Source: Jatrophihabitans sp. GAS493 (lineage in GTDB: Bacteria; Actinomycetota; Actinomycetes; Mycobacteriales; Jatrophihabitantaceae). From it: DNA of 64,000 bases. Below, piece after piece: positions 18,177 to 27,292 of the stretch; position 1 is the stretch's first letter, and every line of letters begins with the position of its first letter. Below the pieces are notes generated by a model, which saw only the letters and a program-made list of their open reading frames with translations, was not told the origin of the DNA and made no database searches. The DNA lies in the NCBI RefSeq assembly GCF_900230215.1, contig NZ_LT907982.1, forward strand, positions 434,001-498,000. Reading direction: 5' to 3'. Made by a program: the position numbers and the translations under genes.

Positions 18177-20915
18177 CTAAGCCCGACGACGCTTGAACGT
18201 CAGAGCGCCGGCACCCGCGGCGACACCGGCCACGATGAGGAGCAGGGCCAGCATCAGCGGCAACCGCAGGTCGGTGCCGGTCAGCGCGAGACCTTCACCC
18301 CCACCGATCGGTGCGACCGCGAACTGCTGGTTCACCGGAGTCGAGGTGGCACACGCCGGATTGGCCGCAGTTGCCGGGCAATCCCCGCCGGAGCCGACCG
18401 GTGTCACCGCCGCGTTGGTCAGGAGTTGATCCCCCGGATCGGGCGCCAGGACAGTGACTGAGTACGTCACGGTGACCACGCCGCCGACCGGCAGGGCGCC
18501 GGACCAGTGCAGCTGCGGCGCTGAGTACGTCGCCCCGTGATCGGCATCGTCGTTGTAACTGGCGTCATCGAGTACAGCGGTCAGATCATCAGTAAAAGAC
18601 GCGGGATCGGCTTCGGTGTAGGCGACCTGGCCGGAGTTCTTGACCGTGATCGTGTAGCTGACCGAGTCACCCACGTTGGCCGAGGTGACGGTGGTGGTCT
18701 TGGTGACGTCGTAACTCTGGACGAGCTTACTGACCAGGCAGGTCGCCGAGACCGTTCCGACCGGGCAGTTGGGTCCGACCACCGCGTTGCCGAGCTGGTG
18801 ATCGCCCCGGTCGGGTGCGTTCACGGTGACGGAGTAGGCGACGACGACGCTCGCCCCGACCGGTACCGCCCCGGCCCAGCTCAGCACCGGCGCGGCATAG
18901 CGTGCCCCGTGATCGGCGTCGTTGTCGTAGGTCGCGTCATCCAGCACACCACTGAGATCATCCGTGAAAGTAGCGGGATCGGCCGCCGTGTAGGGCGCCC
19001 CGCCCGTGTTCGTCACGGTCACCTGATACGTCACCCGACCGCCGGCGCGGGCGGTCGTGCCGGGTGAGGACTTGGCGACGGTGTAGCTGCGGACCGGTAT
19101 CGCCGCGGGGTGGCAGCTGGTGACCAGTACCGCCGGCGCGAGCTGAACGTTCGGCGTGGTCGGCGGTCCGGGGCAGCCGCCGAGGCGGGTCGGGGTGACG
19201 AGCGCATTGTCCAGCAGCTTGTCACCGGTGTCGGGATTGTTCACCGTGACGCTGTAGGTCACGGTGACGGTCGCCCCGACGGCGAGCGGGCCGGACCAGG
19301 AGAGCAGCGGCGCGGCATAGGTCGGGGCCGCAGCACCGCCGGAGGCGCTCGCGTCGTCGTTGTACGTGGCATCGTCGAGGACGCCGCTCAGCGAGTCGAG
19401 GAAGCCCACCGGGTCGACCGAGGTGAACTCAACCTGACCGGTGTTGCGCACGACGACGGTGTACCTGATCGTGTCGCCGAGGTCGGCCACCAGATGATCG
19501 TCGGTCTTCACCACGCTGAAGTCCTGCACCTTCACCGGCGGTGGTGCGCAGTCGGCGCCGGCCGTGGCGGACGGGCAGTTGCCGCCTGACCCGGGCGGCG
19601 TCAGCACCCCGTTCGACAGCAGGTGATCACCGGCATCCGGCGAGGCGATCCGCACCGAATAGGTCACCGTCACGCTTGCCCCGACGCCGAGCGGACCCGA
19701 CCAGGAGAGGACGGGCGCGGTGTAGGTCGGGGCCGGTCCGGAGGTCGCGGTCGCGTCTTCGTTGTACTGGGCGTCATCCAGCACGCCGGTCAGATCATCA
19801 GTAAAACTAGCCGGGTTCGTCGATGGGTAGGCCTTCGTGCCGGTGTTCGTGACGGCGATCGTGTAGGTGACGGTGTCGCCCGGATCGGCCGTCGTGGTCG
19901 AGGCGGACTTCACCACCGAGAAGGTCCGCACCGGAACGCTGCTCGAGCAGCGCGGATCCACCGAGGCGGCCGGGCAGCTCCCGCCCGACGCGGGCGGGGT
20001 GACGACGCGATTCTGCAGCGACCCGTCACCGGCGTCCGGGTTCTGCACAGTGACCGAGTAGGTGACGGTCACGGTGGCTGCGACCGGCAGCGGCCCCGAC
20101 CACGACAGGGTGGGAGAGGCGAATGTCGGGCTCGGGCCGGCACTGGCGGTGGCGTCGTTGTTGAACGTCGCGTCGTCGAGGACGCTGGTCAGGTCGTCGG
20201 TGAAGGAGGCCGGAGCGGCGCCCGTGTAGGCCACCTGCCCGGTGTTGGCGACGGTGACCGTGTAGGTGATCTTGGAGCCGGGAGCGGCGTTCGTGGTCGA
20301 GGCCGACTTCCGCACCGAGTACGACTTCACCGCCACCGTGGAGGTGCAGGTCGGCGCTGCGGCACCGAACGGGCAGTCGCCGCCGCTGTCCGGAGGCGTG
20401 ATCACCGTGTTGACCAGGGACTGGTCGCCGTTGTCGGGGTCATCCACGGTCACCGAATAGGTCACCGTGACACTCCCGCCGATCGCGAGGGGGCCCGACC
20501 AGGTCAGGATCGGCCCGGCGAAGACAGCGGCCGGGCCACTGGAGACGGCAATGTCGTTGTCGTAGGACGCGTCGTCCAGCACGCCCGCGACATTGCCGGT
20601 GATCGAGGCCGGGTTGAGCGCGGTGTAGGCAACGGTTCCGGTGTTCGTGATGGTGACCGTGTAGCCGACGACGCTGGCCGGACCGGTTGCACTCACCGAC
20701 GAGGCGATGACCGCCGAGTAGGTCTGCCCGGCGACGGCGGCCTGCGGTGCCACTGGAGCCGCCGCGGCCGGGTTCAGCGGGAGGGCCGAGGCGACCGCGG
20801 TTAGCGCGGCCAGCAGGGCAGCCGTGACGCCACGACCAGGCAGCCGGGTCTGGCGATGTCCCGCCGATGGACGGCTGGGACGACCGCTCGCCCACCGCGC
20901 CAGGTCGAACCGCAC
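18177..20915 (-). CDS. Cell-wall-anchored DUF11 repeat protein with LALTG sorting signal
   Basis: A 912-residue exported protein. An Arg-rich start leads into a hydrophobic signal peptide (about 28-53, ending in an Ala run). Six Ig-like DUF11 repeats of about 115-130 residues follow, each with a YTVTVTNTG-like strand, FTDDLTGVLDDA and LSWSGPL segments. The C terminus has LALTG (876-880), a membrane helix (about 884-905) and a KRRRA tail, a class-E (LAxTG) sortase signal. It should be linked to peptidoglycan and extend from the surface. No sortase gene is nearby. The start is GTG 20915. Its ligand is unknown. Confidence 0.85.
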   Translation of the reverse strand: MRFDLARWASGRPSRPSAGHRQTRLPGRGVTAALLAALTAVASALPLNPAAAAPVAPQAAVAGQTYSAVIASSVSATGPASVVGYTVTITNTGTVAYTALNPASITGNVAGVLDDASYDNDIAVSSGPAAVFAGPILTWSGPLAIGGSVTVTYSVTVDDPDNGDQSLVNTVITPPDSGGDCPFGAAAPTCTSTVAVKSYSVRKSASTTNAAPGSKITYTVTVANTGQVAYTGAAPASFTDDLTSVLDDATFNNDATASAGPSPTFASPTLSWSGPLPVAATVTVTYSVTVQNPDAGDGSLQNRVVTPPASGGSCPAASVDPRCSSSVPVRTFSVVKSASTTTADPGDTVTYTIAVTNTGTKAYPSTNPASFTDDLTGVLDDAQYNEDATATSGPAPTYTAPVLSWSGPLGVGASVTVTYSVRIASPDAGDHLLSNGVLTPPGSGGNCPSATAGADCAPPPVKVQDFSVVKTDDHLVADLGDTIRYTVVVRNTGQVEFTSVDPVGFLDSLSGVLDDATYNDDASASGGAAAPTYAAPLLSWSGPLAVGATVTVTYSVTVNNPDTGDKLLDNALVTPTRLGGCPGPPTTPNVQLAPAVLVTSCHPAAIPVRSYTVAKSSPGTTARAGGRVTYQVTVTNTGGAPYTAADPATFTDDLSGVLDDATYDNDADHGARYAAPVLSWAGAVPVGASVVVAYSVTVNAPDRGDHQLGNAVVGPNCPVGTVSATCLVSKLVQSYDVTKTTTVTSANVGDSVSYTITVKNSGQVAYTEADPASFTDDLTAVLDDASYNDDADHGATYSAPQLHWSGALPVGGVVTVTYSVTVLAPDPGDQLLTNAAVTPVGSGGDCPATAANPACATSTPVNQQFAVAPIGGGEGLALTGTDLRLPLMLALLLIVAGVAAGAGALTFKRRRA

Positions 20916-20976: not shown

Positions 20977-22224
20977 TCAGTGGGGTGCAACCCCCACCGC
21001 CGCCAGGTCGGTGACGGGCAACGGGGGCCACGAACTGGGCCCCGGCGGGACAACCCGCCCGCCGCGCAGTACCAGCGTCGGGCTGATGGACTCGGCGACG
21101 ATCTCGGCCACCGCGGTGGCGTCGAAGACGTTGAGGTCGCCGCGGCAGCCGACCTCCAACCCATGGCCATCCACGCCGACCACCCGGGAACCGTGAATCG
21201 AGACGATGTCGGCGACGAGTTCGAAGTCGGCGTCGTCATACATTCTCGACTGGTACGCCAGTTGGGTGGCGATCGGCGCCATCGCCGGCACGCCGTAGGG
21301 CGACCAGGCATCGCGGATGCCGTCCGAGCCGGAGATCACCGGCACCCCGGCCGCATGAAGACGCAGCACCGGTGGCGTCATCCCGACCGGACCGTCGGTC
21401 ATGATGCAGATGCCGGCCTCAGCCAACCGGGCGATCACCGGAGCCACCGCGTCGCTCGTCGCGGAACCGAGTGCGTAGGCGTGACTGATCGTCACATTCC
21501 CCTGCATTCCCGAGACAATCGTGCGTTCACAGATCTGCGCTATCTCAGCCAGGCCGTCGGGTCCCTCGTCGTGGAGGTGGATGTCGATGGGTGCGTGATA
21601 CTTCTCGGCCAGCCCGAAGACGACGTCCAGGTGCCCGTCGACGTCACCGTCGATGCCGTGCGGATCCAGGCCACCGACGACGTCGACCCCGCTGCGCATC
21701 GCCTCGTCCATCAAGTCGGCCACTCCCGGGTCGGCCCGGATGCCACTCTGCGGGAAGGCCACCAGTTGCAGATCGACCAGCCCGGCCAGCTTCTCGCGCA
21801 CCTGCACCAGGGTCTCGACACCGCCCAGCCCAACCAGCGTGTCGACGTCGATGTGCGAGCGAATGACACCGACGCCCGCCTCGATCATCCGGGTCGCCAG
21901 GGCCAGTGAGCGGGGTAGTTGCGGCTCGGTGGCGGCAGCGCGGATCGAGCGTTCGCGGTCAATGCACTGGCGAATCGTGGCGCCGGGGAGGTGCGGCTGC
22001 CAGGGCATGCTCCAGAACGTCTTGTCCAGGTGGGCGTGCGCGTTGACGAAGGGTGGCCGCACCACGCGGCCGGCGAGGTCGAGGGTGGCCGCCGATGCGG
22101 GCACGTCCCGGGAGTCATCGAGATCGCTGGCTGGCTCGATTGCGGTGATCATCCCGTCCGTGATGTGGACGTGTCGCAGCGCTCCGTCGATGCGGGCGTT
22201 GCGAAGCACCAGATACTCGGTCAT
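20977..22224 (-). CDS. Amidohydrolase, cytosine-deaminase (CodA)-like
   Basis: A 415-residue metal-dependent hydrolase and the last gene of the ABC-transporter operon. Motifs in order: HAHLDKTFW (metal histidines), RSHIDVD, HLHDEGPDG, a SHA histidine, and SGSDGIRDAWSPYG carrying the aspartate that binds metal and activates water. Length and order match CodA-type deaminases of cytosine and other N-heterocycles. The start ATG overlaps the stop of the preceding amidohydrolase by four bases. The substrate is presumably what the linked transporter imports. Confidence 0.85.
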   Translation of the reverse strand: MTEYLVLRNARIDGALRHVHITDGMITAIEPASDLDDSRDVPASAATLDLAGRVVRPPFVNAHAHLDKTFWSMPWQPHLPGATIRQCIDRERSIRAAATEPQLPRSLALATRMIEAGVGVIRSHIDVDTLVGLGGVETLVQVREKLAGLVDLQLVAFPQSGIRADPGVADLMDEAMRSGVDVVGGLDPHGIDGDVDGHLDVVFGLAEKYHAPIDIHLHDEGPDGLAEIAQICERTIVSGMQGNVTISHAYALGSATSDAVAPVIARLAEAGICIMTDGPVGMTPPVLRLHAAGVPVISGSDGIRDAWSPYGVPAMAPIATQLAYQSRMYDDADFELVADIVSIHGSRVVGVDGHGLEVGCRGDLNVFDATAVAEIVAESISPTLVLRGGRVVPPGPSSWPPLPVTDLAAVGVAPH

Positions 22225-23525
22225 GGGTGAACTCCTTGCAGGATAAGGTCATCGGCTCGAGCGAACGGTTGCGCGGAGTAGGTCAGCATCCCGCCGGAGA
22301 TGGTAGCCAGCACCGCCGGTCCGTCGTGAATGGCCCGCCGCGGATCGGTGGTATCGAGCACCGCGAGGTGGGCGGCGTGCCCGACCTCTGGACCGTGTGG
22401 AGCGCGCCCCAGGATGGCCGCCGGAGCCGTCGTGATCGCATCCAGCAGCAACGCTCGGGCCGGCGGCCCCGGCAACCGTCCGATGATCCCGGCCAGCCAT
22501 GCCGCCTGGATCAGGCTGCCATTGCCATAGGGGGCGAAGTCGTTGGCGATGTTGTTATTGGTCACCGCGGTGCGCACCCCGGCCGCCGCGGCCTCGGCGA
22601 TTGGGGCCAGGCTGCGGCTACCCAGTGACGCTGACTCCTCGTGCGCACCGCCCAGGTAGAGGTCGGTGGCCGGCATGACCACCAGCGCGACCCCGGCATC
22701 GGCCAGCTCGGCGAAGGCGCGCGCCCGGTCGTCGCTGCTCATCGCCGCCAGCTTGGTGACGTGACCGATGGTGACCAGTCCCTGCATCCCCAGCGTGCGC
22801 GTCCGGTCGGCCACGGCTGCGATGAGGGAGCCGGACGGGTCGTCGTCGAAGTCGAGGTGCAGGTCGACCGGCAGTCCATGCTGGTCGGCCAGGCCGAAGA
22901 CCGCATCGAGGTGGGCCAGTGGATCATCCTCGACGTACGGACAGCCGGCGATGACCTGCACCGCTGCGCCGGCGGCGGCAGCGGCCATGTCGGCCCGGAC
23001 GCCTCCGGAGAGTCCGTACTGCGGGAAGGCGGTGATCTGCAGATCGAGGACGTCGGCGAACTCCTGCCGGAGCCGCTGATGGAGCTCGACCAGGGCCAGG
23101 CCGCCGTCACGGTCGATCTCGGCGTGCGCCCGCACGGCGACAACCCCCTTGCGAACAAGGGTATTGACGGCTCGCCGCGCGCCGTCGAGCACCGTCTGTG
23201 CGTCGATTCGCTGCCGGACCTCGGCCATCGCGGCGATGGCACCCGCGACCCCGGCACCGGCCCCAACCCCACCGCGAGCCGACTCACCGGCGTCGAGGAG
23301 ATAGGCCTTGTCCAGATGGACGTGCGCGTCGACCAGGCCGGGAACCAGCACCTGCCCCGCCACGTCCAAGACCCGCCCGGATGCGGGCGAGCCTTGGACG
23401 GAGAGGTCCCCAGCGCTGTCGGTCACCGCGGTGACGACGCCGTCGACCACAACGAGATCGACCAGGCGGCCGTTCGTCAGTCGGGCGCCGGTCACCGCGG
23501 CGAGCGAGGGGAGGGTGTTACTCAC
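22221..23525 (-). CDS. Amidohydrolase, CodA-like paralogue with altered metal site
   Basis: A 434-residue relative of the next gene, keeping HVHLDKAYLL, AHAEIDRDGG and the GHV histidine. It differs where CodA enzymes carry the catalytic glutamate and aspartate: HLDFDDD replaces the HxDE segment and TNNNIANDFAPYG replaces SGSDGIRD. NNxxN variants are known in some CodA-like branches, so this may mark a different substrate rather than inactivity. GTG start; it overlaps both neighbours by four bases, so co-translation with the binding protein and second hydrolase is expected. Confidence 0.82.
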   Translation of the reverse strand: MSNTLPSLAAVTGARLTNGRLVDLVVVDGVVTAVTDSAGDLSVQGSPASGRVLDVAGQVLVPGLVDAHVHLDKAYLLDAGESARGGVGAGAGVAGAIAAMAEVRQRIDAQTVLDGARRAVNTLVRKGVVAVRAHAEIDRDGGLALVELHQRLRQEFADVLDLQITAFPQYGLSGGVRADMAAAAAGAAVQVIAGCPYVEDDPLAHLDAVFGLADQHGLPVDLHLDFDDDPSGSLIAAVADRTRTLGMQGLVTIGHVTKLAAMSSDDRARAFAELADAGVALVVMPATDLYLGGAHEESASLGSRSLAPIAEAAAAGVRTAVTNNNIANDFAPYGNGSLIQAAWLAGIIGRLPGPPARALLLDAITTAPAAILGRAPHGPEVGHAAHLAVLDTTDPRRAIHDGPAVLATISGGMLTYSAQPFARADDLILQGVHP

Positions 23526-24667
23526 TGGTGGATGGATGGATCAAGGTATTCGTTGGTGGCGATGTCGGACGGCTTGAGTCCATCCTGGATCTTGATGTTC
23601 TTGGTGGCGAACATCGTGCCCAGCATGCTGATCGAGTTGGTGAGCCGGGTCGGGTCCATCGAGCCGAGGGTTCCGTCCGTGCCGTTGGCGACGATCTTCT
23701 CCGACAGCTGCACCTTCACCGAGTCGGCGTTGCCGTCAGCCGTGATGGGCGGGCCGTCCTTGATCTTGGCTCCGATGTCGAGGAGGGTCTGGTTGGTCGC
23801 GGCCGGATCCTTGATGTAGTCGAGCTGGGCCTTCTGCAGCAGCGGGACCAACTGCTTCAAGCAGGGCGAGAGCTTCTCCTTCTCGGCACTGCGGATCGCC
23901 ACCTGCTGCGGGTAGACGTCCCACCCGGCGTCAGCAACCAGCAGGTACTTCACCGGCTTGTTCCACTGCGGCACGTTGTGCTCCCAACGGTACGGCTCGT
24001 TGCTGACGTAGCCCTGCTGCATCTCCTTGCCGCCGGCCGCGACGAAGCGGCTCGGGCTGCCGTCGAAGGAGGCGTCAAGCTGGCTCTTCTTCACGATCCC
24101 CTTGGAGACAAGGTAATCCATGTAGGTCAGGCCCTCGGTGTAGAGCACCTTGGCGTTGGTCGGCGCGACGTCGGCCCACGTCTTCACGGTGGTGAGCGTG
24201 GCCGGATCCCACATGACGATCTGCGGATCCTTGTCCAGCGGCGCCACCACACCGAGCGTCGGGAACTTGGCGAAGTCACGGACGGCGGAGTCGGTGGAGA
24301 CGTAGCCGAGGGTGATCGAAGTGTCGGTGTACATCTGCGCGCTCACGGCCTGGTAGCCGATGAAGGGTCCACCGAGGCGGACCTCGACCGAGACACCGGT
24401 GTCACCGATCTTGCCCAGGTACGCACCCTTCTTGGCGTCGACCGTGCCACCCGGCCCGGCGAGCTGGTAGGCCGCGGCCCGCTCCGGGGTGGCGTACCAG
24501 TCGGTCTGGATGACGACCGTCTTCGGGCAGACCGACGCGAGCGTGCCGGCCGCGGCCGACGAGTTTCCGACCGCCGCCGAGGTGGCAGCACTGCTGCATG
24601 CCGTCAGAGCGGTTGCGGCGATCGTGACGGCACCCGCCGTAGCGATCAGTTTCCTTCGTGTGGGCAT
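23522..24667 (-). CDS. ABC transporter substrate-binding lipoprotein (NMT1/ThiY-SsuA-like)
   Basis: A 381-residue lipoprotein with a signal peptide and lipobox LTAC (Cys24). The mature domain begins VVIQTDWYATPERAA, like the NMT1/ThiY/SsuA class that binds pyrimidines, sulfonates and other small organics. The ATG at 24667 has an AGGAG site; in-frame sequence further upstream is antisense to the permease and is discarded. It overlaps the next amidohydrolase by four bases. Binding is inferred to be to the substrate of the two hydrolases. Confidence 0.87.
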   Translation of the reverse strand: MPTRRKLIATAGAVTIAATALTACSSAATSAAVGNSSAAAGTLASVCPKTVVIQTDWYATPERAAAYQLAGPGGTVDAKKGAYLGKIGDTGVSVEVRLGGPFIGYQAVSAQMYTDTSITLGYVSTDSAVRDFAKFPTLGVVAPLDKDPQIVMWDPATLTTVKTWADVAPTNAKVLYTEGLTYMDYLVSKGIVKKSQLDASFDGSPSRFVAAGGKEMQQGYVSNEPYRWEHNVPQWNKPVKYLLVADAGWDVYPQQVAIRSAEKEKLSPCLKQLVPLLQKAQLDYIKDPAATNQTLLDIGAKIKDGPPITADGNADSVKVQLSEKIVANGTDGTLGSMDPTRLTNSISMLGTMFATKNIKIQDGLKPSDIATNEYLDPSIHQ

Positions 24668-24711
24668 GCGTTCTCCTAGTTTTGTTGCTGGATTGGCTGG
24701 ACTTGCTGTGG

Positions 24712-25632
24712 TCAGCTGCGCGCTGGTGAGCGCCGCGCGGTCACCCAGTGGGTGATGCGGTCGAAGAAGATGTAGAGCAGCACGCCGACGGCTGAGCTGA
24801 GCAGCAGCGCGGCGATCATCTTGTCGGTCTCCAGAGATTGCCGGTAGCTGTCGATGAGACGGCCGATGCCGGGCTCCCCCTGCCGGAAGAAGAAGTCGGC
24901 GATGATCGAGCCGACCACCGAGAGTCCGGCCGCGATCGTGCAGCCGGTGAGCGCCGTCGGCAGAGCCGCCGGCAGTTGCAGGTGACGAAGTCGCTGCAGC
25001 CGGGAGGCACGGAAGAGCGAGAACTGATCGTGCAGCGACGAGTCGACCGAGCGAATGCCGAATAAAGTATTGGTGATCACCGGGAAGATCGAGATCAGCA
25101 CACAGACGATCACCCGTGCCGTGAACTCGTATCCGAACCAGAAGCCGAGCAGCGGGACGACGGCCAGGATCGGGATCGTCTGCAGAATGACGGCGTAGGG
25201 GTAGAGGGAGAGTTCGATCCAGCGGGCCTGGCTCATGAGTACGGCCAGCAGCACACCGAAGATGATCGAGAGACTCAGCCCGACGAGGGCCACCTTGGTG
25301 GTGGACCAGAGCGCGTTCAGGATCTCCGCGCGGGTCACGCTGTCGACGATGCCGGCGCGCCATACCTCGAGCGGCGAGGGCAGCAGGAACTGCCTGGTCG
25401 GGTCGAGCACGTGGTCGCTGATGAATGTCCAGATGCCGATCACCACGGCCAGGGTGATCAGCGGCGCCAGCCAGCGGCTGAGGCGGGAGCCGGTGCGGCT
25501 GGCGTGGGCGATGACCTCGACCGGGTTCAGCGAGTTGGTCGTCGGCTCATCGGGAGCGGCTGCTGCGGGGGTGGCGGCGGTTGGCATGCTGGCTGATCCC
25601 GTTGTCCCCGTGGTTCCCGTCGTCCCGATCAC
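24712..25632 (-). CDS. ABC transporter permease (SsuC/ThiX-like)
   Basis: A 306-residue inner-membrane permease with a Thr/Pro/Ala-rich cytoplasmic head of about 50 residues, then six helices and a permease core (FWFGYEFTARVIVCVLISIF, LPAALPTALTGCTIAAGLS). It belongs to the class that partners NMT1/SsuA-type binding proteins. The GTG at 25632 overlaps the ATPase stop (GTGA); an in-frame ATG lies 15 codons later. The first codons include a GTTGTTGTTG-type amino-acid repeat. Confidence 0.9.
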   Translation of the reverse strand: MIGTTGTTGTTGSASMPTAATPAAAAPDEPTTNSLNPVEVIAHASRTGSRLSRWLAPLITLAVVIGIWTFISDHVLDPTRQFLLPSPLEVWRAGIVDSVTRAEILNALWSTTKVALVGLSLSIIFGVLLAVLMSQARWIELSLYPYAVILQTIPILAVVPLLGFWFGYEFTARVIVCVLISIFPVITNTLFGIRSVDSSLHDQFSLFRASRLQRLRHLQLPAALPTALTGCTIAAGLSVVGSIIADFFFRQGEPGIGRLIDSYRQSLETDKMIAALLLSSAVGVLLYIFFDRITHWVTARRSPARS

Positions 25633-26396
25633 GCGGCCTCACCCCGCGCCAGTGAGGATGCGGCGAGCGCGTCGGATAGTTGACGGCAGAGGTCGGCGAA
25701 CTCGGTCGAGTAGCGCAGCGACGCGGGGCGCGGCCGGGCGAATGGCACGCGAATATCGGCGATAACTGAGCCCGGTCGCGCCGAGAAGACAACCACCCGG
25801 TCGGCCAGGAAGACCGCCTCGGTGATGGCATGGGTGACGAAGACACCGCAGAACGGCCGCTGGGCCATCAGCTGGTCCAGCTCTTCGTTGAGCTTCTGCC
25901 GGGTGATCTCGTCCAGGGCGCCGAAGGGCTCGTCGAAGAGGAACACCTCCGGTGACTCGGTGAGCGCGCGGGCGATGGAGACGCGCATGCGCATGCCGCC
26001 GGAGAGTTGAGCCGGACGGAGCTTCTCGTAATCGGCCAGTCCGACACGCTTGAGCGCCTCGCGCGCGGTGGCGTTCGCCTCCCGGCGGGGGCGGCCGGCC
26101 AGCCGCAGCGGGAGCGTCACATTCTGCAGGGCGGTGAGCCAGGGCAGCAGCGTCGCGTCCTGGAAGACGTAACCGACGTGGGAGGCCGCGCTCTCCACGC
26201 TGCCGGTGGTGGGGGCGTCGAGTCCGGCCAGCATGCGCAGCAGCGTGGACTTCCCGCAGCCGGAGGGGCCGACGAGGGCGACCATCTCGTCGGGCGCCAG
26301 TTCAAGCGACGTCCGCTCGATGGCCACCGTTCCGTTCGGGAAGACCCGCGTGACGTCGGTGAGCCGCGCTGCCGGCTGTGTATACGAGATGCCCAT
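25629..26396 (-). CDS. ABC transporter ATP-binding protein (SsuB/ThiZ-like)
   Basis: A 255-residue ATPase with Walker [10 protein letters not shown] (near 43-51), Q-loop YVFQDATLLPWL, signature LSGGMRMR and Walker B EVFLFDEPFGALD, the pattern of nitrate/sulfonate/taurine-type importers. First gene of the transporter operon. No ribosome site precedes the ATG. Two GTATAC half-operators flank or overlap the start codon (26379-26407), so transcription may begin very close to it. Confidence 0.92.
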   Translation of the reverse strand: MGISYTQPAARLTDVTRVFPNGTVAIERTSLELAPDEMVALVGPSGCGKSTLLRMLAGLDAPTTGSVESAASHVGYVFQDATLLPWLTALQNVTLPLRLAGRPRREANATAREALKRVGLADYEKLRPAQLSGGMRMRVSIARALTESPEVFLFDEPFGALDEITRQKLNEELDQLMAQRPFCGVFVTHAITEAVFLADRVVVFSARPGSVIADIRVPFARPRPASLRYSTEFADLCRQLSDALAASSLARGEAA

Positions 26397-26407
26397 TCAC
26401 GTATACA
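26379..26407. promoter_or_regulatory. GTATAC-type inverted operator at the start of the transporter operon
   Basis: TGTATACG (26379-26386) and CGTATACA (26400-26407) form an 8-bp inverted repeat with a 13-base spacer around the ATPase start codon. GTATAC cores are typical of GntR/FCD-family operators (established for several FadR-group regulators). The GntR/FCD gene 84 bases upstream is the obvious candidate to bind here. Confidence 0.6.
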
Positions 26408-26480
26408 ACGATGGCTGTGTTTCGGCGCTGTTGCCTCGCTGTGCTTGGGCTGTAAACGTCGCGTCGGGGGGCGGCCCGCT

Positions 26481-27128
26481 TCAGTCGCGGGTCAGCAGGA
26501 TCTCGAAGAGGAGCTTCTCGTCGCGCACCACGTCTTCCCGCATGGCGGCGGCGGCGGCCTCGGGATCGCCCTGCAGGATGGCCTCGGCGATGAGGGCGTG
26601 ATGGCGCCAGGAGTCGGGCGAGCGCTGTTCGAGGTTGTACTCGAAAATCCAGCTGACCTGGCTGCGGACCGTCTGCAGCAGGGTGGCCAGCTCGGCGTTG
26701 CCGGAGGCCTGAGCCACCAGCTCGTGGAAGCGATCGACCAGGCCGGCGACGTGGTCGAACTGCTTGCGGGCGGTCGCCGACGACCCCTGCTTCAGCACCG
26801 ACCGCAGCTCGGCGGCGACGGGAGCGCCCTGCCGCTCGGCGGCCAACCGGGCCGCCAGCTCCTCGAGGTTCTGCCGGATGACCATCAGCTCGCGGGTGCG
26901 TCGCGGCGACGGCAGCGCGACGGTGGCTCCGCGGCGCGGAACGATCTCGATGAAGCCCTCGTGGGCCAGCAGTTGGAGCGCCTCGCGGGCCGGTACGCGG
27001 GAGACGCCGTGCTGCTCGGCCAGCGCGTGCTCGAGAATGCGGGTGCCCGGCACCAGCTCGCCGGAGATGATCTCGGCCCGCAGCGACCGGGCGATCGAAT
27101 CCCGCAACGGCTCCACAGTGGCGCTCAC
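26481..27128 (-). CDS. GntR-family transcriptional regulator with FCD domain
   Basis: A 215-residue repressor-type regulator. The winged helix at residues 5-75 includes LRAEIISGELVPGTRILEHAL and SRVPAREALQLLAHEGFI. An all-helical FCD ligand domain spans about 80-205 with the usual histidines (FHELVA, WRHHALIAEAI). GTG at 27128 is chosen; longer in-frame sequence upstream runs into the divergent gene and lacks domain similarity. It sits just upstream of and co-oriented with the ABC-amidohydrolase operon, so I infer it senses that operon's substrate and acts at the GTATAC repeats. Confidence 0.88.
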   Translation of the reverse strand: MSATVEPLRDSIARSLRAEIISGELVPGTRILEHALAEQHGVSRVPAREALQLLAHEGFIEIVPRRGATVALPSPRRTRELMVIRQNLEELAARLAAERQGAPVAAELRSVLKQGSSATARKQFDHVAGLVDRFHELVAQASGNAELATLLQTVRSQVSWIFEYNLEQRSPDSWRHHALIAEAILQGDPEAAAAAMREDVVRDEKLLFEILLTRD

Positions 27129-27292
27129 TGGCTGGTACCTCGGCTCGGCGTTGACACGTCCAACAGTCTGCCGCACGCCGCGGAGGTGGTTGCTCCCGAA
27201 TCGCCCGTCGCCAGGCGTCGTCGTACCGGGCGGGCGAGTCTTGGCGCCCGCGTCCGCGGCCTTCCCAATTCGCCGGGCCTTCTTCGTGCCCA

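Follow-up and report, generated by a model that had tools for sequence, protein, structure and literature searches.

Introduction

The described enzymes that most resemble the two amidohydrolases considered here are CodA, the cytosine deaminase of Escherichia coli, and AtzC, the N-isopropylammelide isopropylaminohydrolase. We have analysed a 64,000-nt stretch of the genome of Jatrophihabitans sp. GAS493 (contig NZ_LT907982.1, positions 434,001 to 498,000 of the forward strand; this whole stretch is referred to below as the window), in which the genes for the 2 amidohydrolases, AH1 and AH2, lie at the end of a predicted operon for uptake and hydrolysis of a small nitrogen compound. AH1 keeps the CodA-like fold and its metal-binding histidines, lacks both acidic residues of the standard deaminase mechanism, and belongs to a widely distributed clade, here called N-type, in which the aspartate on strand β8 is replaced by asparagine.

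The published portions on which we draw describe these residues as follows. The β8 Asp is a metal ligand in AtzC (PMC4577212), and in subtype III deaminases an Asp is the base for water and a Glu the proton carrier (PMC4577212, PMC12828455). The AtzC residue placed with CodA Glu217 is His219, one position earlier after the β5 His, and the H219A variant is active (PMC4577212). With ammelide as substrate, AtzC D303N gave a kcat of 90.4 vs 26.2 per s and a Km of 6.1 vs 3.1 mM; D303A was active too, and H249A was dead (PMC4577212). From these variants it follows, as far as that source goes, that an Asn at the β8 position does not by itself abolish catalysis.

Results

AH1 has a CodA-like fold and an altered active site

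The 2 genes are adjacent to each other:

22221-23525, minus strand: AH1, N-type amidohydrolase, 434 aa; Pfam Amidohydro_3, CodA-like fold
20977-22224, minus strand: AH2, amidohydrolase that by sequence is canonical and AtzC-like, 415 aa; Pfam Amidohydro_3, NCBIfam PRK05985

The AlphaFold2 (AF2) model of AH1 (pLDDT 87.1) is a predicted CodA-like barrel. Its top fold match was CodA (3g77; VIA Z 49.7, 401 residues, 2.6 Å), and AtzC also has this fold (Z about 46). Positions were paired by hand on an alignment to CodA 3o7u, using the chain number minus one. By this count CodA H61, H63, Q156, H214 and H246 are kept as AH1 H68, H70, Q169, H223 and H255, such that the HxH of β1 and the His residues of β5 and β6 are in place and the 3 metal His, the shuttle His and the substrate Gln of CodA all have counterparts. 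Five other positions are changed: E217 to F226, N279 to D288, D313 to N324, D314 to N325 and W319 to F330. The β8 Asp, which is both metal ligand and base, is therefore N324 in AH1, and the Glu that follows the β5 His is F226; a new Asp, D288, stands where CodA has N279. This last position falls between Val278 and Leu282 of CodA, both of them listed among the active-site differences from AtzC (PMC4577212, in part). AH1 likewise differs from AtzC in lacking Asp303 and in its β5 motif, where D225 occupies the His219 position.

The score of AH1 was under the cut-off for every NCBIfam model among the matches listed (25 of 26). Its best model was PRK05985 (178.6 bits vs a cut-off of 408), and it fell outside the cytosine deaminase family PRK07572 (151.5 bits vs 438). 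A first-pass annotation of this DNA had described AH1 and AH2 as 2 paralogous deaminase-type enzymes. For AH1, which lacks both CodA acids (Asp313 and Glu217), the name deaminase should not be used.

The altered site defines a clade

We compared AH1 with 171 profile matches, of which 59 have Asn at the β8 position, 110 have Asp and 2 have a gap. The N-type and canonical groups were divided by this residue, so that the contrast at column 324 is true by definition. All 59 Asn rows carry N325, N328, D288, D225, H223, H255 and Q169, and all have F or L at position 226. Among the 110 Asp rows, position 226 is E in 95 and D in 15, position 328 is D in 107, and position 288 is N in 88 of the 97 that have a letter there. 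Two loci, L014 and L023 (partial), were missing from the 171-match count because of alignment gaps; upon rechecking, L014 proved to be N-type. In a recheck of 61 N-type loci against the profile, N324, N325, N328, D288, D225, H223, H255 and Q169 were present in 61/61, F226 in 57 (L in the other 4), and H68/H70 in all 60 with letters.

The 5 columns that best separated the clade from canonical proteins were 324, 226, 328, 288 and 136, at which AH1 has N324, F226, N328, D288 and E136; each of them is part of a catalytic motif or adjoins one. This comparison used 52 N-type rows (7 repeated loci removed) and 110 canonical rows, and excluded columns filled in fewer than 80% of the former or 60% of the latter. 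The Asn/Asp exchange between β7 and β8 is reciprocal within the clade. In a tree constructed without columns 136, 226, 288, 324, 325 and 328 (AH1 and AH2 together with 38 of 52 N-type and 44 of 107 canonical rows), the 39 N-type rows fell on one side of a single branch with a Shimodaira-Hasegawa-like approximate likelihood ratio (SH-aLRT) support of 85, which requires 1 change compared with 28 in shuffles. The sequences so far indicate that the N-type trait arose once.

The clade has members among the Actinomycetota, the Alpha- and Betaproteobacteria, and in Enterococcus. Matches with E of 1e-100 or better were present in 47 of 249 genomes in the order of Rhizobium (L015), and the 30 loci taken from these are N-type; in 2 of 321 in the class of a Ramlibacter metagenome-assembled genome (MAG); and in 7 of 345 in the class of Glycomyces, the weakest 2 of which (L160 and L161) are canonical. 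The centre genome is included in each of these counts. Against the Protein Data Bank (PDB), the best match of the N-type profile was a canonical deaminase (4r7w, 285 bits), and in the literature searched we found no described Asp-to-Asn amidohydrolase clade at the level of titles and abstracts. In the annotated loci read, N-type proteins are named 'amidohydrolase family protein' or, in a single instance (L090, 8869-10113), codA cytosine deaminase, which, judging from the lack of catalytic Asp and Glu, is likely a misannotation.

Fifteen close N-type pairs, all from the order of Rhizobium, had ratios of nonsynonymous to synonymous substitution (dN/dS) of 0.08-0.20 by a crude NG86 calculation on matched stretches, with L014 and L077 omitted on account of short matches. 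These values, together with the lack of stops inside the listed N-type matches, speak against AH1 being a decaying gene. Considering the activity of AtzC D303N and the strict conservation of the site, we regard AH1 as a functional enzyme whose site has been rebuilt, which our analysis makes more likely than an inactive partner of AH2.

AH2 resembles AtzC

AH2, in contrast to AH1, scored above the cut-off of the curated family PRK05985 (434.7 bits vs 408). Its closest PDB entry was 6nbo, annotated as N-isopropylammelide isopropylaminohydrolase (E 1.7e-76), followed at a distance by AtzC itself (2qt3, E 4.4e-51). The metal histidines, the catalytic Asp and the HxHxDK motif are present as in AtzC, and by these features of its sequence AH2 is a canonical AtzC-like amidohydrolase. 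The AtzC substrate residue Asn304 is not conserved, however: in the alignment to 2qt3, a Gly follows the catalytic Asp (SDGIRD). AtzC activity of AH2 is hence not implied.

Genes beside AH1 relatives

We counted the genes in the available stretches around the 61 N-type loci, excluding the window. Gene calling overlooked some of the AH1 genes, and the counts were therefore taken from profile searches of stop-to-stop frames. In the following, the numbers in parentheses refer to genes on the same strand as, and within 400 bases of, the matched N-type stretch: AH2-type, 13 loci (3); GGT, 13 (9); deaminase-type amidohydrolase superfamily (AHS), 21 (7); amidase-type, 18 (9); GntR, 22 (1); and ATP-binding cassette (ABC) ATPase, 39 (0). 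The amidase-type cluster had at one stage been labelled AtzF after its member L162, an allophanate hydrolase; the label was dropped when the 3 other members scanned proved to be amidase PRK08310. Another frequent cluster, c2, had the look of an antisense reading and was set aside.

HpxW-like GGT genes occurred at 13 of 60 N-type loci vs 0 of 65 canonical loci. For the one GGT compared with PDB, rhizobial L091, the best entry by summed chains was 5hft (180.1 + 172.6 bits), which we take to be HpxW, a GGT-fold oxamate amidohydrolase; the best single chain was that of 2i3o (184.4 bits). The rhizobial protein is a putative counterpart. No GGT was found in the window genome.

Two loci bring N-type genes together with genes of oxalurate and allantoin metabolism. 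The Ramlibacter MAG (L013, 5.9 kb) encodes the C-terminus of AllG, a membrane protein, AH1, AH2, AllH and the start of an AllS-like LysR regulator (146 bits vs a cut-off of 372, the gene being cut by the contig end). We rejected an earlier assignment of the first of these as the end of FdrA: it is AllG by Pfam, and its counterpart in Enterococcus is the distal part of the long fdrA product. That product (L202, 10339-13350, 1003 aa) may itself be an FdrA-AllG fusion. It is located on NZ_CP143580.1, a 747-kb Enterococcus faecalis 'plasmid' that carries housekeeping genes, among them ezrA and that of aspartate kinase, and may be a mislabelled chromosome. The Enterococcus cluster contains fdrA, AllH (Pfam 101 bits), carbamate kinase, allD, a membrane protein, AH1 and, in a wider stretch, an AH2-type gene additional to the 13 loci counted above (AH2 profile, 284 bits; N-type profile, 164 bits). 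The AH1 proteins of Enterococcus and Ramlibacter are sisters on the tree (100), and the 2 membrane proteins are 61% identical over 397 residues. In both loci the membrane protein (L089, 7507-8859; L013, 728-1918) is directly upstream of AH1, has many hydrophobic stretches by eye and has no Pfam match; it is a candidate importer.

Reading of the loci placed AllH in at least 2 of the 61. We know of no CodA-like enzyme in the oxalurate/allantoin pathway of E. coli. The accessible text of PMC11326118 describes that pathway with AllD, AllK and an oxamic transcarbamylase composed of FdrA, AllG and AllH. Its genes adjoin AH1/AH2 relatives in Enterococcus and Ramlibacter; the window genome differs, with 0 matches to AllH (among 14 control genomes, E. 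coli alone matched). In view of the absence of AllH and GGT from that genome, an operon ending in oxamate was rejected for the window, and by these sequence matches the oxalurate link is limited to the Enterococcus/Ramlibacter branch. As to the substrate, parabanate is reported to hydrolyse to oxalurate at neutral pH (PMC5703782, in part), and a 1965 title cited in PMC11326118 has parabanic acid as an inducer of oxamate transcarbamylase; parabanic acid is only a lead.

Two N-type genes are near genes for luciferase-like monooxygenases, in Pseudonocardia (L012, 4997-6757; NtaA/DmoA family) and, along with a flavin reductase gene, in Rhodococcus (L087). These are possible ring-opening partners.

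These neighbourhoods bear on 2 alternatives to a working AH1. One is that AH1 is a pseudoenzyme, a folded and catalytically dead paralogue that serves as scaffold or regulator in an assembly with AH2 or a different hydrolase encoded in the operon. The loss of the metal-ligand Asp and of the subtype III deaminase Glu (PMC12828455, in part) is what would be expected in that case, as would the 4-base overlap of the AH1 and AH2 genes and the GGT, amidase-type, deaminase-type and AH2 genes which adjoin N-type genes. Yet, wherever these residues could be aligned, the clade retains the metal and shuttle His and the substrate Gln, the would-be partners are from differing families, 48 of the 61 loci lack AH2 in the available stretch, and AtzC remains active as D303N (PMC4577212, in part). 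We consider a dead AH1 the less likely reading, with a small but real probability; a more restricted version, that AH1 is an obligate subunit of AH2, was rejected because AH2 was found in just 13 of the 61 loci.

A second alternative, to which we give slightly less credence still and which we regard as unlikely, is an ordinary two-step deaminase/aminohydrolase operon of the atrazine/cytosine type, with residue changes that merely tune specificity. Among solved structures, CodA and AtzC are indeed the best matches of the 2 proteins, and on ammelide AtzC tolerates loss of the metal Asp (PMC4577212, in part). However, AH1 is under the NCBIfam cut-offs noted above (25 of 26 models listed) and both catalytic acids differ throughout its clade; the neighbours of its relatives include ureide and oxamate genes, and no triazine or cytosine pathway gene was found among the neighbours examined. 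A working, rebuilt AH1 remains our preferred reading below.

Organization of the operon in the window

The remaining features are:

26481-27155, minus strand: GntR/FCD transcriptional regulator, 224 aa; GTG start, uncertain; Pfam FCD 83.9 bits, GntR 59.1 bits
26380-26406: paired GTATAC-N15-GTATAC, predicted operator, 27 bases, spanning the ATPase start codon
25629-26396, minus strand: ABC transporter ATPase, NitT/TauT-like, 255 aa; Pfam ABC_tran 114 bits
24712-25632, minus strand: ABC transporter permease, 306 aa; Pfam BPD_transp_1 87.2 bits
23522-24667, minus strand: substrate-binding lipoprotein (SBP), 381 aa; lipobox LTAC in the sequence, NMT1/THI5-like fold

The order on the minus strand is ATPase, permease, SBP, AH1, AH2, with the GntR/FCD gene upstream. 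Adjacent genes overlap by 4 bases at 3 of the 4 junctions (ATPase/permease, 25629-25632; SBP/AH1, 23522-23525; AH1/AH2, 22221-22224), and a 44-base gap separates permease from SBP. The five-gene operon with 3 such overlaps and an upstream GntR/FCD gene, as proposed in the first-pass annotation, is borne out by these coordinates and by Pfam, which finds both a winged helix-turn-helix and an FCD domain in the regulator. The top NCBIfam models of the ATPase were those for taurine, SaoA and nitrate ATPases, and those of the permease were SaoP, SsuC and NtrB, in every case with scores under cut-off. Beyond AH2, a minus-strand open reading frame (18177-20915, 912 aa) encodes tandem repeats of the type 'YTVTVTNTG...DDLTGVLDDA' and a hydrophobic C-terminus, and resembles surface repeat proteins.

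The paired GTATAC sequence has a single match in the window and none in 100 shuffles. Nocardioides (L006) and Frankia (L007) have it too, with identical spacing and likewise at the start of the ATPase gene, and in all 3 loci the ATG of the ATPase is within the spacer. We found no further copy in the 918,936 bases of the 61 N-type loci and none in 999,048 bases of control (non-N-type) loci; Glycomyces loci contain GTATAC copies with different spacing. No ribosome-binding sequence was seen upstream of the ATPase ATG, which makes a leaderless start of ATPase translation possible.

The SBP had no match in Pfam or NCBIfam at E 0.001, NMT1 included; the one PF09084 match of the genome is at a different locus. 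Its AF2 model (pLDDT 77.3) was most similar to the thiamin-binding protein 4nmy (VIA Z 24.6, 3.5 Å, 283 residues), followed by ThiY 3ix1 (Z 23.3) and Thi5 4esx (Z 21.1), with nitrate, bicarbonate and sulfonate binders trailing (Z 17-19). The description of the lipoprotein as NMT1-like therefore stands with respect to fold, where the THI5 group is best, and fails with respect to sequence models. That the SBP imports a thiamin-related pyrimidine to be salvaged by the hydrolases is suggested by these nearest folds, which are thiamin-, FAMP- and HMP-related proteins, but is very improbable, in that the alignments have 10-16% identity, the other binders are close behind, fold does not define ligand, and we came across no thiamin gene in those annotated regions that were read.

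Conservation of the gene set

In Nocardioides sp. YR527 (L006), we observed the order GntR, ATPase, permease, SBP, AH1, AH2, as in the window. Three Glycomyces loci (L008, L009 and L011) have the transporter, AH1 and AH2 together, with AH2 ahead of the ATPase. Two further loci, from Frankia nepalensis (L007) and from a Frankiaceae MAG (L010), have a gene similar to 8-oxoguanine deaminase between SBP and AH1 (517.6 and 489.7 bits, respectively; cut-off 532). AH2 was not found in the 11.4-kb stretch of the former or the 3.6-kb contig of the latter, which says little beyond the adjacency of these 3 genes. Recurrence of the gene order in other genera indicates that the arrangement is not due to chance.

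A search of 345 genomes with an SBP profile gave 4 strong matches (631.8, 608.9, 605.9 and 596.5 bits), each within 5 kb of an N-type AH1 gene, and none away from an AH1-type gene. Three of the 4 (G400, G401 and G991) are the sources of profile rows L008, L007 and L010, which were reached through AH1, so that G1007 (same contig as G051) is the sole independent one; in this genome AH2 and SBP share a strand and AH1 lies on the other. What carries weight in this search is the lack of a strong SBP match without AH1. The remaining 34 matched genomes scored 405.9 bits or less; in one of them, G1076, the SBP match and an N-type gene are separated by about 110 kb. The proposal that transporter and hydrolases form one unit had been coupled to a search for conserved gene order, and would have failed if the hydrolases never occurred beside the transporter. 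The order is kept in Nocardioides and Glycomyces, and partly in Frankia, and the hydrolases do accompany the transporter.

Discussion

We propose, at about even chances, that the operon is induced by a small nitrogen compound, which its products import and then hydrolyse in 2 steps, with AH1 carrying out the second; the compound is most likely a ureide or a heterocycle of the oxidised-purine type. The class of compound is suggested by the oxamate-carbamoyltransferase, HpxW-like, amidase and 8-oxoguanine-deaminase-like genes that adjoin some AH1 relatives. These neighbours favour ureides and oxidised purines over the pyrimidine, creatinine-like or triazine-like substrate put forward in the first-pass annotation, for which we found no direct support.

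In the absence of a ligand, the GntR/FCD protein would act as a repressor at the conserved GTATAC pair that covers the ATPase start codon. The THI5-fold lipoprotein would capture the compound for import by the transporter, which by family is of the NitT/TauT class. AH2, whose site has the standard 3 His plus Asp, would carry out one metal-dependent C-N hydrolysis. AH1 would then perform a chemically different hydrolysis with its 3 metal His, proton-shuttle His and substrate Gln and without the β8 Asp or a counterpart of Glu217. His255 may activate its metal-bound water by the carbonic-anhydrase type of mechanism that has been put forward for AtzC, and Asp288 may take over the role of Asp313.

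Several observations weigh against this proposal. Catalysis by AH1 and AH2, the structures of the proteins and the ligand of the SBP are predictions. The presence of AH2 at 13 of the 61 N-type loci (14 with the wider Enterococcus stretch) argues that pathways with 2 such hydrolases are not the general rule, and the class of transporter varies, 22 of the 61 loci being without an ABC ATPase in the stretch available. The GGT contrast is confounded by taxonomy, as all 13 carriers are in the order of Rhizobium, and, in the absence of AllH and GGT, the window genome does not share that end of the pathway. Also, the clade branch is supported by an SH-aLRT of only 85, and with a single origin the perfect residue counts do not represent independent events.

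More tentatively, and with rather less confidence than we place in the operon assignment, we suggest that AH1 represents an unrecognised, cross-phylum branch of amidohydrolases in which the catalytic acid has moved (β8 Asp to Asn, post-β7 Asn to Asp, β5 Glu lost), and which may hydrolyse a ureide or cyclic ureide that the canonical site does not, feeding ureidoglycolate or oxalurate metabolism in some hosts. If active, the N-type proteins would be an example of a textbook catalytic residue that has relocated within the barrel in the course of evolution with the metal histidines retained, and may fill missing steps in the purine-derived nitrogen pathways of soil bacteria, rhizobia and enterococci.

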